Assembly: GCA_018820205.1 (NCBI GenBank)
Contig: JAHJOK010000056.1
Location: 25,008 to 89,007, forward strand
From: Alphaproteobacteria bacterium
GTDB taxonomy: Bacteria > Pseudomonadota > Alphaproteobacteria > Caulobacterales > Caulobacteraceae
Direction of reading: 5' to 3'
DNA length: 64,000 nt
The notes beneath the pieces were generated by a model. The model had not been told where the DNA came from, searched no databases, and saw only the letters and a program-made list of their open reading frames with translations. A program made the translations under genes and the position numbers. Numbering within the stretch: position 1 is the stretch's first letter; each line of letters begins with the position of its first letter. Shown in pieces: positions 3-14,970 of this stretch.

Positions 3-413
3 TATGTCCGCGACCTGTCGTTCGAGAACCCCAAGGCGCCCGACAGCCTGCGCATCGAGGGCAAGCCCCAGATCGACCTGGGCGTGGAGCTGAACGCCCA
101 GGGCCGTCCGGACGGCCTGTTCGAGGTGGACGTCAAACTGTCGATCAAGGCCTCGACCGAAACCATGCCGGTGTTCCACGTGGAACTGCTTTACGGCGGC
201 CTGTTCCAGCTGTCCGGCATCTCCGAGGCCGAGATCGAGCCGATGCTGCTGATCGAATGCCCGCGCTATCTATTCCCCTACGCCCGCGAGATCGTGGCCC
301 GGGCGACGGCGGACGGCGGCTTCTATCCGCCCTTCATGATGGACCCGATCGACTTCGCCGGCATCTATACGGCGCGCCAGCAGCAGCAGGCCCAGACCGG
401 CGGCGCGGCCTGA
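3..413 (+). CDS. secB: Protein-export chaperone SecB (5' truncated by window start)
   Basis: Frame is open from base 3 ([34 protein letters not shown]...); SecB motifs [42 protein letters not shown]. Confidence 0.95.
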
Positions 414-2627: not shown

Positions 2628-3229
2628 GTGCGGATCGCGCCGGCGCGGCGCAGTTCGTCCAGGACGGGCCACAAGGGCATGCCGAGGACGGTGAAATAGT
2701 CGCCCTCGACCCGGTCGAACAGCTGTGCGCCCCGCCCCTCCAGCCGGTAGCAGCCGACCGATCCCAACAAATCTTCGCCCTCGGCCTGCAGATAGGCGTC
2801 GAGAAATTCGTCGCTGAAACGCCTCATGCTCATCCGAGCCGTATCAACGCCGGACCAGACCACGGCCCCGCCGCGCGCCAGGGCGGCCGCCGAGTTCAGG
2901 TGGTGCGTTCCGCCGCGCAGCGTCCGAAGCCGTTCGCGCGCCGCGTCGAGATCGGCGGCCTTGGAAATCATCCCGCCCGCGAAATCCAGCGTCTGGTCCG
3001 AGCCCAGCACCCAGGCCTCGGGATCTTGGCGCGAGATCGTCAGGGCCTTGGCCCGCGCCAGCTCGAGGGCCAGTTCCGCCGGGTCGATGCCGTCCAGCGA
3101 CGCCTTGATCGCATCCTCGTCGACGCCGGCGTCCTGGGCCGTGAAGGGAACCCCGGCGCCGGTCAGCATGGTTCGCCGCGCGGCGCTGCGGGACGCCAGG
3201 ATCAACCGTTCTTCGTTGACGCCGCTCAC
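2624..3229 (-). CDS. maf: Maf-like nucleotide pyrophosphatase
   Basis: LILASRSAARRTMLTGAGVPF, VLGSDQTLDF. Confidence 0.92.
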   Translation of the reverse strand: MSGVNEERLILASRSAARRTMLTGAGVPFTAQDAGVDEDAIKASLDGIDPAELALELARAKALTISRQDPEAWVLGSDQTLDFAGGMISKAADLDAARERLRTLRGGTHHLNSAAALARGGAVVWSGVDTARMSMRRFSDEFLDAYLQAEGEDLLGSVGCYRLEGRGAQLFDRVEGDYFTVLGMPLWPVLDELRRAGAIRT

Positions 3230-4095
3230 CAGGACGCCCCCAGGCCGCGTGTGCGTCGTTCGGTCAGAAGGTTGAGGATCGCCGCCGCCGTCTCCTCGAT
3301 CGAACGCCGGGTGACGTCGATCGTGGGCCAGCCGCGCCGTTCGAAAGCCCGGCGCGCCTTGATCGTCTCGTCCCGGACCGCGTCGGGCTCGACATAGGCG
3401 GAGGCATGATTGGCGTTCAGACCGTCCAGCCGGTTTCGACGAATCTGGACCAGCCGGTCGGGCGAGACGGTCAGGCCGATGATCAGGGGGTTCTTCAGGC
3501 CCACCAGCCGCTCGCCATCCTCCTGACCCGGCACCAGCGGCACATTGGCGGCGCGCACGCCCCGGTGGGCCAGATAGATGCAGGTCGGGGTCTTCGACGT
3601 CCGACTGACGCCGACCAGGACGACATCGGCCCCCTCCAGCTGTTCGGCCGTACCCTGACCGTCGTCATGGGCCATGGCGTAGTCCAGGGCGCCGATGCGG
3701 TTGAAATAGTCGTGGTCCAGGGCGTGCTGAGCCCCCACCCGCGTCGACAGGGCCGCGCCGAGGTAGCGCGACAGGGCGCCGACCAGCGGATCCAGCGCGC
3801 CGATATGGGGCATGTCCAGGGCCCGGCAGCCTTCCTCGAGCTGGGCCCGCAGGTCGCGATCGACGATGGTGTGCAACACCACGCCCGGCGCGGCGGAGAT
3901 CTCCGTCAGCACGCGTTCCATCTGCTTGTCGGAGCGGACCAGGGCGTAGATGTGCTCGATCGGAATGACCCCGTCGAACCGGGCCGTCACCGCCTTGGCC
4001 ATGGCGTTCAGCGTCTCGCCGGTGGAATCCGACACCAGATGAACATGGAAATAGGTCGCCAGTCGCGACGCGCCCGCTGGACGCGCGGGGCTCAC
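3226..4095 (-). CDS. ppsR: Pyruvate, phosphate dikinase regulatory protein (DUF299 kinase/phosphorylase)
   Basis: FHVHLVSDSTGETLN, VLVGVSRTSKTPTCIYLAHRGVRAANVPLVPG. Confidence 0.9.
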   Translation of the reverse strand: MSPARPAGASRLATYFHVHLVSDSTGETLNAMAKAVTARFDGVIPIEHIYALVRSDKQMERVLTEISAAPGVVLHTIVDRDLRAQLEEGCRALDMPHIGALDPLVGALSRYLGAALSTRVGAQHALDHDYFNRIGALDYAMAHDDGQGTAEQLEGADVVLVGVSRTSKTPTCIYLAHRGVRAANVPLVPGQEDGERLVGLKNPLIIGLTVSPDRLVQIRRNRLDGLNANHASAYVEPDAVRDETIKARRAFERRGWPTIDVTRRSIEETAAAILNLLTERRTRGLGASW

Positions 4096-4311
4096 GCCGG
4101 ACCCCGGCCAGGGAAAACACGGATCGAGAGCATGCGAATGGCGATGATTCCTGTGGATCGGATGCGGCGCCGAACGGCCGCGCTGGGGCGCCGATCCCTA
4201 TAGCGCGCGCCTCGTCCGGCGGCGAGCGGGGACGGTGGTGGACGTCGTCCGTCGTCCGTCTGCGGATCATCCACGGCCTCCACCGCGCCCACGTTTCCGC
4301 TGGGGAGATCC

Positions 4312-4326
4312 TTAATGAAAGGTAAA
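4312..4326. promoter_or_regulatory. Near-consensus CtrA binding site (TTAATGAAAGGTAAA)
   Basis: TTAA-N7-TAAA, one mismatch to TTAA-N7-TTAA. Confidence 0.55.
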
Positions 4327-4375
4327 CGGCGCCCAGCCCAATCCCGGATCGGCAGGCCGCCCGATCGCCCGGCTG

Positions 4376-4390
4376 TTAAGGTCTGATTAA
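4376..4390. promoter_or_regulatory. CtrA binding site (TTAAGGTCTGATTAA)
   Basis: Exact TTAA-N7-TTAA. Confidence 0.8.
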
Positions 4391-4601
4391 GGATTGTCCC
4401 CGGTTTCTACAGGCTGTCCGTGGGTCGTTGCTCTAGCTGGCCACGGCCCGGGACAAGACCCTTGCGCGTGGGGATCGGCCCCGGTCTGTCCCCGTCATCC
4501 CCGGCCCTACCGACTGCCTCCAATCCTTTTATTTTTCTGATCAGGATAAGAGGAGAAGCGCGGGCTTGAGGCGATGCGCCCATGGCCCTAGAGCCGGGGT
4601 C

Positions 4602-5639
4602 ATGAGCACCACGCCTTCGTTGATCCGCGTCCTTCAGGGCCAGACCCTGGATCGGCCGCCCGTCTGGTTCATGCGTCAGGCCGGGCGCTACCTGCCCGAA
4701 TACCGGGCCTTGCGGGCCCAGGCGCCGGACTTCATCGCCTTCTGTCTGAACCCCGAGATGGCGGCCGAGGCAACGATGCAGCCGATGCGCCGGTTCGGCT
4801 TCGACGCTGCGATCGTCTTCGCCGACATCCTGTTGATCCCCAGGGCCCTGGGCCAGGACGTCTGGTTCGAGACCGGCGAGGGGCCGAAGCTGGGCCTGAT
4901 GCCGACGCCGGGTCATATGGCAGAGCTGGCAGAGGGGGCTGGCGAGCATCTGTCGCAGGTCGGCGAGACCCTGAGCCGGGTGCGGGCGGAGTTGGATCCG
5001 GAACGGGCCCTGATCGGGTTCGCCGGCGCGCCGTGGACCGTTGCGACCTATATGCTGGACGGGAAACACGACACGATGGGCAAGGGCGAACGCGCCAATG
5101 CCCGCTCCTATGCCTATGCCGATCCGGACAGGGTCGGTGCGGTGCTGGATGTGCTGGTCGAGGCCACCGCCCGCTATCTGAAAATGCAGGCCGACGCCGG
5201 GGCCGACGCCCTGAAGATCTTCGAGAGCTGGGCCGAGGGCCTGCCCGACGATCTGTTCGAACGACTGGTCATGCGGCCGCACCGGAAACTGGTCGCGCGG
5301 GTCAGGGAACTGGGCGTCACCATCCCTTTGATCGGGTTTCCGCGCGGGTCGGCCTTGCACGCCGAACGCTATGCCCGAGAGGTCGATGTCCAGGCCGTGG
5401 CTCTGGACACCGCCTGTTCGCTGGAGCGCGGTCGCCAGGTCCAGGCCGTCAAGCCGATCCAGGGCGCGCTGGACCCGCTGTTGCTACGCGCCGGCGGTGC
5501 GGCGCTGGACCGCAGGGTGGATCAGCTTGTCGAGGCCTGGGGTTCGGGGCCATGGATCTTCAACCTGGGTCACGGCATCCTGCCGGACGTGCCGATCGCC
5601 CATGTCGAACAGGTGCTGAAACGCCTGGGCGCCCAGTAG
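4602..5639 (+). CDS. hemE: Uroporphyrinogen decarboxylase
   Basis: PPVWFMRQAGRYLPEYRALR, FADILLIPRALG, NLGHGILPDVP. Confidence 0.96.
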   Translation: MSTTPSLIRVLQGQTLDRPPVWFMRQAGRYLPEYRALRAQAPDFIAFCLNPEMAAEATMQPMRRFGFDAAIVFADILLIPRALGQDVWFETGEGPKLGLMPTPGHMAELAEGAGEHLSQVGETLSRVRAELDPERALIGFAGAPWTVATYMLDGKHDTMGKGERANARSYAYADPDRVGAVLDVLVEATARYLKMQADAGADALKIFESWAEGLPDDLFERLVMRPHRKLVARVRELGVTIPLIGFPRGSALHAERYAREVDVQAVALDTACSLERGRQVQAVKPIQGALDPLLLRAGGAALDRRVDQLVEAWGSGPWIFNLGHGILPDVPIAHVEQVLKRLGAQ

Positions 5640-8944: not shown

Positions 8945-9916
8945 TCAGGGTATCAGAAGGGTGGAGCCGGTGGTCCGCCGGCCTGCCAGCGCCTCATGCG
9001 CCTGTCGCACCTGGTCGAGCGAGAACGTCTGTCCGATCTCGACCTTGACGGCGCCGGACCCGACCACATCGAACAGGGCGGCGGCGCTGGCGTCCAGCTC
9101 TTCGGTCGTGGCCACATAGTCGAACAGTTTCGGCCGGGTCATGAACAGCGAACCGGCGGCGTTGAGCCGAAGCGGTTCGATCGCGGGAACCGGGCCCGAG
9201 GCGTTGCCGAAGCTGACGAACAGCCCGCGTCGGTGCAGACTGGACAGGGACGCGTCCACCGTCTCCGCCCCCACCGAGTCATAGGCCACGGCTACGCCGT
9301 CGCCTCCGGTGATCTCCCTGACGCGCTCGGCGACGTCCTCGTGTCGGTACAGGATGATGTGGTCACAGCCGTGGGCGTGAGCCAGTCGGGCCTTGGCGTC
9401 GTCGCCGACAGTCCCGATCACAGTCGCTCCAAGCGCCTTGAGCCATTGGCACAGGATCAGGCCGACGCCGCCGGCGGCAGCATGAACGAGGACGGCATCG
9501 CCCTGTTTCACGTGAAACACCCGTCGCGCCAGGAATTCCGCCGTCATTCCCTTGAGCATGATGGCAGCGGCGGTCTTCAGCGAAATCTCATTCGGAACCC
9601 GAACGGCCCGACCGGCGTCCACGATGTGCGCCTCGGCATAGGCGCCGACCGGACCGGTTCCATAGGCCGCCCGATCACCGACCGCGAAGCGGGTGACTCC
9701 CGGCCCGACGGCCTCGACCATGCCTGCGCCCTCCAGCCCCAGACCGGTCGGATAGGTCAGGGGATAGAGACCCGTCCGCTGATAGACATCGATGAAGTTC
9801 AGCCCGCAGGCCTCGTGCCGGATCAGGATCTGGCCCTCGCCGGGCGTCGGCGTGGGAACCTCACTGACCGTCATGACCTCGGGTCCGCCGGCCCGGTCCA
9901 GCCTGACCGCCTTCAC
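8945..9916 (-). CDS. Quinone oxidoreductase (zinc-type alcohol dehydrogenase-like, NADPH:quinone reductase family)
   Basis: GQILIRHEACGLNFIDVYQRTGLYPLTYP, GLGLEGAGMVEAVG, VLVHAAAGGVGLILCQWLKALGATVIGTV; likely GTG start (VKAVRLDRAGGPEVM). Confidence 0.9.
   Translation of the reverse strand: MKAVRLDRAGGPEVMTVSEVPTPTPGEGQILIRHEACGLNFIDVYQRTGLYPLTYPTGLGLEGAGMVEAVGPGVTRFAVGDRAAYGTGPVGAYAEAHIVDAGRAVRVPNEISLKTAAAIMLKGMTAEFLARRVFHVKQGDAVLVHAAAGGVGLILCQWLKALGATVIGTVGDDAKARLAHAHGCDHIILYRHEDVAERVREITGGDGVAVAYDSVGAETVDASLSSLHRRGLFVSFGNASGPVPAIEPLRLNAAGSLFMTRPKLFDYVATTEELDASAAALFDVVGSGAVKVEIGQTFSLDQVRQAHEALAGRRTTGSTLLIP
9504..9519. other. parS: parS centromere site TGTTTCACGTGAAACA
   Basis: Perfect 16-bp palindrome matching the ParB-binding consensus; inside the oxidoreductase CDS. 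Confidence 0.93.
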
Positions 9917-11573: not shown

Positions 11574-11589
11574 TGTTTCACGTGAAACA
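11574..11589. other. parS: parS centromere site TGTTTCACGTGAAACA
   Basis: Perfect 16-bp palindrome in the mnmE-mnmG intergenic gap. Confidence 0.95.
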
Positions 11590-14154: not shown

Positions 14155-14970
14155 ATGACCAAGTCCTCCCCGAAGAAGGCGCCCCGGGTGCTGGCCGTCT
14201 CGAATCAGAAGGGCGGGGTCGGCAAGACGACGACCGCGATCAACCTCGGAACGGCGCTGGCGGCCATCGGCGAGCGGGTGCTGATCGTCGACATGGACCC
14301 ACAGGGCAATGCCTCCACCGGACTGGGTGTTCCACGTGAAACACGCCGCATCACCATCTATGACGTGATCGTAGACGGGCGCTCGGTGCACGACGCGGCG
14401 GTGAAGACGGCCGTCCCAGGGCTGGAGATCATCCCCGCCGACGCCGACATGTCGGGCGTGGAGATCGAACTGAGCCAGGCCGATCGGCGCTCTTACCGGC
14501 TGCGGGACGCGCTGGCGGCCCAGGCCTCGGACGGCAATACCGGGTATGACTATGTCCTGATCGACTGCCCGCCGTCCCTCAACCTGCTGACGCTCAACGC
14601 CATGGCGGCGGCCGACGGGGTTCTGGTCCCGCTGCAGTGCGAGTTCTTCGCTCTGGAAGGGTTGACGCAGTTGATGAAGACCATCGAGATGGTCCGTCAA
14701 TCATTGAATCCGACGCTCGAGATTCAGGGGCTGGTGCTGACCATGCACGATCGGCGCAATGCGCTGTCGGGACAGGTCGCCGCCGATGTCCGCGCCCATT
14801 TCGGGGACAAGGTCTATGAGGCCGTGATCCCCCGGAACGTCCGCGTGTCCGAGGCGCCGTCCTTCGGCAAGCCGGTTCTGATCTATGATCTGAAATGCAC
14901 CGGCAGCCAGGCCTACCTGCGTCTCGCCAAGGAGGTGGTCGGCCGCGAACGCCGCCGCCTCGCCGCCTGA
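14155..14970 (+). CDS. parA: Chromosome partitioning ATPase ParA
   Basis: RVLAVSNQKGGVGKTTTAINLGTALA deviant Walker A, VDMDPQGNASTGLG, DYVLIDCPPSLNLLTLNAMAAAD. Confidence 0.97.
   Translation: MTKSSPKKAPRVLAVSNQKGGVGKTTTAINLGTALAAIGERVLIVDMDPQGNASTGLGVPRETRRITIYDVIVDGRSVHDAAVKTAVPGLEIIPADADMSGVEIELSQADRRSYRLRDALAAQASDGNTGYDYVLIDCPPSLNLLTLNAMAAADGVLVPLQCEFFALEGLTQLMKTIEMVRQSLNPTLEIQGLVLTMHDRRNALSGQVAADVRAHFGDKVYEAVIPRNVRVSEAPSFGKPVLIYDLKCTGSQAYLRLAKEVVGRERRRLAA
14328..14343. other. parS: parS centromere site TGTTCCACGTGAAACA inside parA
   Basis: 15/16 match to the palindrome; encodes GVPRET of ParA. Confidence 0.85.

Follow-up and report, generated by a model that had tools for sequence, protein, structure and literature searches.

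The non-coding gap of 506 bp between the divergently transcribed genes ppsR and hemE (4096..4601) almost certainly represents the single chromosomal origin of replication of this Brevundimonas, in a position homologous to that of Cori in Caulobacter crescentus. It is an ordinary, well-supported origin of an already known type (Cori-type, ppsR/hemE), for which position, gene context, motif content, and conservation were directly observed. The main interest lies in a Brevundimonas lineage whose origin apparently lost its CtrA boxes, rather than in the origin of the window itself. The window, i.e., the whole stretch of 64,000 nt analysed, corresponds to positions 25008-89007 of contig C55 (89,007 nt, 68.5% GC) of a Brevundimonas MAG of 3.27 Mb in 89 contigs that is close to B. 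subvibrioides. Its nearest relatives by ppsR+hemE are one B. subvibrioides MAG and one Brevundimonas pond MAG.

The left boundary gene ppsR (3226..4095, minus strand), encoding a PPDK/PEP synthase regulator (COG1806/DUF299), matches NCBIfam NF003742 with 318 bits compared to a cut-off of 225, and the right boundary gene hemE (4602..5639, plus strand), encoding uroporphyrinogen decarboxylase, matches TIGR01464 with 359 bits compared to a cut-off of 303. Both genes are transcribed outward from the gap. Experimental mapping in C. crescentus put the origin between hemE (CC3763) and the COG1806 gene (CC0001) (PMC1914354). The flanking genes match those of Cori, and the first-pass annotation placed the gap correctly at the site of the C. 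crescentus origin. The neighbouring genes dnaQ, coaE, aroE, maf-like, ppsR, hemE, hemH, hemJ-like, and rho were matched in NCBIfam, but aroE, maf, and hemJ scored below the curated cut-offs. A search for ppsR relatives in viral contigs returned none.

The divergent arrangement of ppsR and hemE is kept in all 80 Brevundimonas-like relatives, whose loci were fetched by hemE, with gap lengths of 437-611 bp. In other genera of the Caulobacteraceae it is kept in 25 of 30 sampled genomes, and the remaining five have no ppsR beside hemE. Four of the five parS sites of the genome are located within 10 kb of the gap, at about -4, +5, +7, and +10 kb. These are GTTCCACGTGGAAC to the left of the gap (173..186, C55:25180-25193), two exact sites (9504..9519, matching TGTTTCACGTGAAACA with 0 expected, and 11574..11589), and a site with one mismatch (14328..14343). 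In relatives, parS sites adjoin the same ppsR-hemE gap, which in case of the complete genome G259 are found at -4.2, +5.1, and +7.1 kb from the homologous gap.

As the genome of the window consists of 89 contigs, strand skew was tested by proxy in two complete Brevundimonas genomes, G259 and G012, with about 27% of each chromosome sampled at even spacing. An origin with an antipodal terminus was assumed, and a position was accepted if its score was within 10% of the optimum. In G259, the gap reaches 97-98% of the best possible score for GC skew, keto skew, and the polarity of GGGNAGGG, which we take to be a strand-polarity marker and here a putative FtsK-orienting sequence, compared to 58-69% for dnaA. 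G012 agrees in all three measures with a broader interval. Because skew in these relatives is noisy and sampled, the origin is placed only to within 0.1-0.5 Mb. The skew inflection elsewhere that the first-pass annotation had named as counter-evidence did not appear in these proxies, in which the gap was accepted in all three measures and favoured over dnaA. The latter gene is not adjacent to the gap in the two complete relatives (0.29 Mb away in G259, C1 about 0.1-1.5 kb; 0.35 Mb away in G012, C1 about 556-558 kb), unlike in C. crescentus, where dnaA lies near the origin. Within the contig of the window itself, the keto-skew minimum occurs at window position 4120. GC skew was discarded as a locator when taken from the 89-kb contig by itself, being flat around the gap and lowest about 13 kb to its left.

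Two CtrA boxes are located on the plus strand of the gap, box 1 with one mismatch (TTAATGAAAGGTAAA, 4312..4326) and box 2 as a perfect match (TTAAGGTCTGATTAA, 4376..4390; TTAAC form on the minus strand, 4375-4390). They are conserved with at most one mismatch in 57 and 58 of 81 aligned Brevundimonas, respectively. For TTAA-N7-TTAA with at most one mismatch, the two boxes observed compare to 0.016 expected, a number reached in 0 of 2000 dinucleotide shuffles (P < 0.0005). The 89-kb contig has only three such boxes, of which two are inside the gap, and the 3.27-Mb genome contains only six perfect boxes and four TTAAN7TTAAC places, one of which is box 2. The perfect and the one-mismatch box reported initially are therefore real, conserved, and beyond chance. 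Likewise, the remark that there are fewer CtrA sites than the five of Caulobacter is true and applies to Brevundimonas genus-wide, which may point to a simplified CtrA control of this origin. With at most one mismatch, a mean of about 1.55 boxes per gap was obtained for 110 Brevundimonas gaps (0.04 after shuffling), compared to 3.6 in genus g32, which is probably Caulobacter, and 4.3 in genus g24. Given the difference between 1.55 and 3.6, we regard few CtrA boxes as a trait of the genus Brevundimonas. Some of the 110 rows represent one species reached via two collections, and the set is not fully clean: row L083, a contig of "Proteobacteria bacterium SZAS-4", has ppsR+hemE sequences identical to those of L197, which belongs to a different genus (g19) outside Brevundimonas.

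Both DnaA-box-like sequences proposed from the first reading were recovered on re-reading. The G-box-like CGATCCACA (4152..4160, minus strand) has one mismatch to TGATCCACA, and its TCCACAGGA core is aligned in relatives. TCATCCACG (4267-4275, plus strand) belongs to a pair of overlapping weak DnaA-like boxes (4261..4275), the other being the one-mismatch G-box TGATCCGCA (4261-4269, minus strand). Sites within one mismatch of TGATCCACA number two, compared to 0.06 expected (P 0.0005, shuffles). A canonical TTATCCACA box with at most one mismatch was not found in the gap. A W-box-like weak DnaA site, TTGTCCCC (4394..4401, plus strand), is situated 3 bp past CtrA box 2, and an TTATCCCC-type site with at most one mismatch occurs there in 55 of 81 aligned Brevundimonas. 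Paired W-box-like sites (CTGTCCCC and ATCCCC, 4486..4502, plus strand) lie in a strongly conserved block beside the AT-rich stretch. The W-box-like motifs of the first-pass annotation are thus present, and several are positionally conserved across relatives, but their enrichment by count alone is weak (GTCCCC 3 compared to 0.76, P 0.03; TCCCC 6 compared to 3.3, P 0.08). The likely unwinding element (4522..4541) is 80% AT over 20 bp, and the 20-bp window at 4522 exceeds 99.97% of the windows of the contig in AT content. The AT-rich TTTTATTTTT noted earlier is real and begins at 4527.

The GANTC site noted at 4146-4150 is present, but due to a count not above chance (1 compared to 2.6 expected) it was dropped from the origin evidence. 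Shaheen et al., who reportedly compared freshwater and marine Caulobacter origins in 2009 and may have included strains now called Brevundimonas, are said to have found CcrM (GANTC) sites conserved only among close freshwater Caulobacter; for this reason, GANTC was treated as non-defining for a Cori-type origin. For IHF, a single candidate site with one mismatch lies at 4521-4532. A CTATAGC element (4198..4204) lies in a TATAGC-type block that is conserved in the alignment and in many Brevundimonas origin gaps, and is possibly a promoter element.

Considering C. crescentus as a model, binding of DnaA and CtrA, unwinding, and repression may proceed at the gap as follows. DnaA would load at a small number of G-box-like sites of moderate strength (4152-4160, 4261-4275) together with weak W-box-like sites (4394-4401, 4486-4502), and would open the AT-rich stretch at about 4522-4541, adjoining hemE. 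CtrA~P bound to the boxes at 4312-4326 and 4376-4390, beside DnaA-type sites, would hinder DnaA assembly in the non-replicating cell, and the new origin would be segregated by ParB bound to parS at a distance of 4-10 kb.

The gap could instead be merely a long divergent promoter region of ppsR and hemE with CtrA-regulated promoters, the true origin being located at dnaA or elsewhere. Divergent genes do require promoters, CtrA boxes regulate promoters as well, and the CTATAGC block may represent a promoter element. We nevertheless consider this explanation highly improbable, since each of the three skew measures ranks dnaA below the gap in both complete relatives, parS sites are clustered at the gap, the DnaA-type boxes are conserved, and an AT-rich stretch is present. 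Less easily dismissed, although still unlikely in our judgement, is an origin in which the two CtrA boxes serve transcription, either of hemE or of a CcnA-like RNA, and not the repression of replication. The CtrA-dependent RNA CcnA begins within Cori of C. crescentus (PMC8959179), and removal of CtrA sites from Cori perturbs the cell cycle only mildly in laboratory culture (PMC4468827). Against such a role, both boxes adjoin conserved DnaA-type sites, as competition predicts, and the Rfam scan gave no credible match to an RNA inside the gap, with no family above threshold, although Rfam may lack a CcnA model. An origin with CtrA repression remains our preferred reading.

Complete absence of CtrA boxes with at most one mismatch was observed for all 18 rows of the B. 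diminuta clade (L033, L035-L040, L045, L050, L072, L075, L078, L079, L081, and L191-L194), which comprises B. diminuta, B. naejangsanensis, B. guildfordensis, B. bullata, B. terrae, B. pishanensis, and MAGs and was defined on a quick FastTree tree of ppsR+hemE with local support of 100. Outside this clade, L071 is the sole row without a CtrA box. With two mismatches allowed, the clade mean is 0.33 boxes compared to 3.2 elsewhere. On the tree, the absence would be explained by a single loss. All four clade genomes tested retain ctrA, their CtrA being 88-89% identical to the query, an approximate C. crescentus CtrA sequence that served as a probe only. Furthermore, perfect CtrA boxes exist outside the gap in clade genomes, including TTAAGGTCGTATTAAC, which is common to relatives beyond the clade. 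The clade genome G181 has its gap at about 2.563 Mb, matching the keto-skew optimum (2.55-2.56 Mb), and four parS sites are found within 8 kb of the gap, so the origin has probably stayed in place. The GGGNAGGG optimum of G181 is situated 0.16-0.28 Mb off the gap, and strand counts beside the gap are mixed. L033 is titled a Bordetella sp. MAG; as its ppsR+hemE place it within the B. diminuta clade, we presume that contig or title is misassigned.

The origin gaps of the 18 clade loci contain 6-11 copies of the palindrome GGCGCC (mean 8.1), compared to about 0.5 in shuffles and 1.2 per 500 bp elsewhere in these loci, statistics that are post hoc since counting began only after the motif had been noticed visually in the clade. 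The densest 300-bp GGCGCC stretch lies in the gap in 14 of 14 clade loci and across 400 kb of G181, and in G012, which lies outside the clade, the gap contains the densest cluster in 1.01 Mb sampled. Three copies occur in the window at 4166..4171, 4187..4192 (21 bp from the first), and 4328..4333 (adjoining CtrA box 1). They align with copies of the clade, being identical in 26, 35, and 26 of 67 relatives outside it, respectively, and in 14 of 14 within it for each. In the gap of the window itself, GGCGCC was not accepted as a clear signal (only three copies, P 0.036, with the densest stretch of the contig elsewhere). Pairs spaced by 21 bp were also rejected as an origin-specific signature; due to their frequency (19-37 pairs genome-wide in 6 of 9 genomes searched), it is the density of the cluster rather than this spacing that stands out. 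In several of these genomes, GGCGCC is common within coding sequences. Between Brevundimonas species, its genome-wide density varies about fivefold, from 0.23 to 1.28 per 500 bp in samples of G012, G259, G181, and G000, which may reflect differences in methylation or restriction.

In C. crescentus, the solitary methyltransferase CCNA_03741 is reported to have GGCGCC as its m5C motif, and an ortholog, Bresu_0174, exists in B. subvibrioides (PMC7987155). What solitary cytosine methyltransferases do in the Alphaproteobacteria is, according to PMC12907096, essentially unknown. All genomes searched encode one or more C5 methyltransferases. A candidate gene with an open frame of 381-389 aa is present in five of five clade genomes searched, including one with L037 (B. 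diminuta ATCC 11568). The genome of the window encodes a C5-cytosine methyltransferase (387-aa open frame) on the dnaA contig, about 6 kb from dnaA (G000:C7:47857-48906 and C7:41485-41967), with a possible counterpart in G259 (L247:11030-12184), for which family, structure, and plasmid searches gave no basis for assigning the GGCGCC motif.

The pattern in the B. diminuta clade suggests that another control may have replaced CtrA at its origin. As a tentative proposal, possible though on balance doubtful, this origin lost its CtrA boxes once, gained 6-11 GGCGCC, and is controlled via cytosine methylation or a GGCGCC-binding protein instead of CtrA, with the window's origin (three GGCGCC, two CtrA boxes) as an intermediate. 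A GGCGCC-binding protein without methylation would account for the array equally well. Because the disappearance of CtrA boxes and the increase in GGCGCC coincide on one branch only, the link between the two amounts to a single event, and in L071 CtrA boxes were lost without a gain of GGCGCC.

These observations fix the origin for a Brevundimonas lineage that is used in comparison with Caulobacter. Direct control of the origin by CtrA is a textbook feature of Caulobacter; the sites for it are reduced in number in Brevundimonas and seem to be missing from one whole branch, in which ctrA is nevertheless retained. This branch offers a natural experiment on whether a cell can replicate asymmetrically with no CtrA at its origin, and also asks whether a solitary cytosine methyltransferase has a job there. 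In the literature searched, mostly outside subscription journals, no published description of a Brevundimonas origin or of a GGCGCC array was found.

Compared to known origins, the gap resembles Cori of C. crescentus in its flanking genes, divergent layout, and similar size, in CtrA boxes beside weak DnaA boxes, and in an AT-rich stretch. It differs from Cori in having two CtrA boxes instead of five, in lacking a canonical DnaA box, and in carrying GGCGCC elements. Marine Caulobacter origins also use CtrA with few sites (Shaheen et al. 2009; PMC4468827), but their use of CtrA is said to have evolved separately. The origins of Rickettsia and Wolbachia share hemE as a boundary gene and vary in CtrA-box number, zero included, but belong to distant relatives with AT-rich genomes, and in Wolbachia COG1253 takes the place of ppsR on the side opposite hemE (PMC1914354). 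With its dense, putative methylation-target sites, the GGCGCC array of the B. diminuta clade would resemble a methylation-controlled origin of the SeqA/Dam type.
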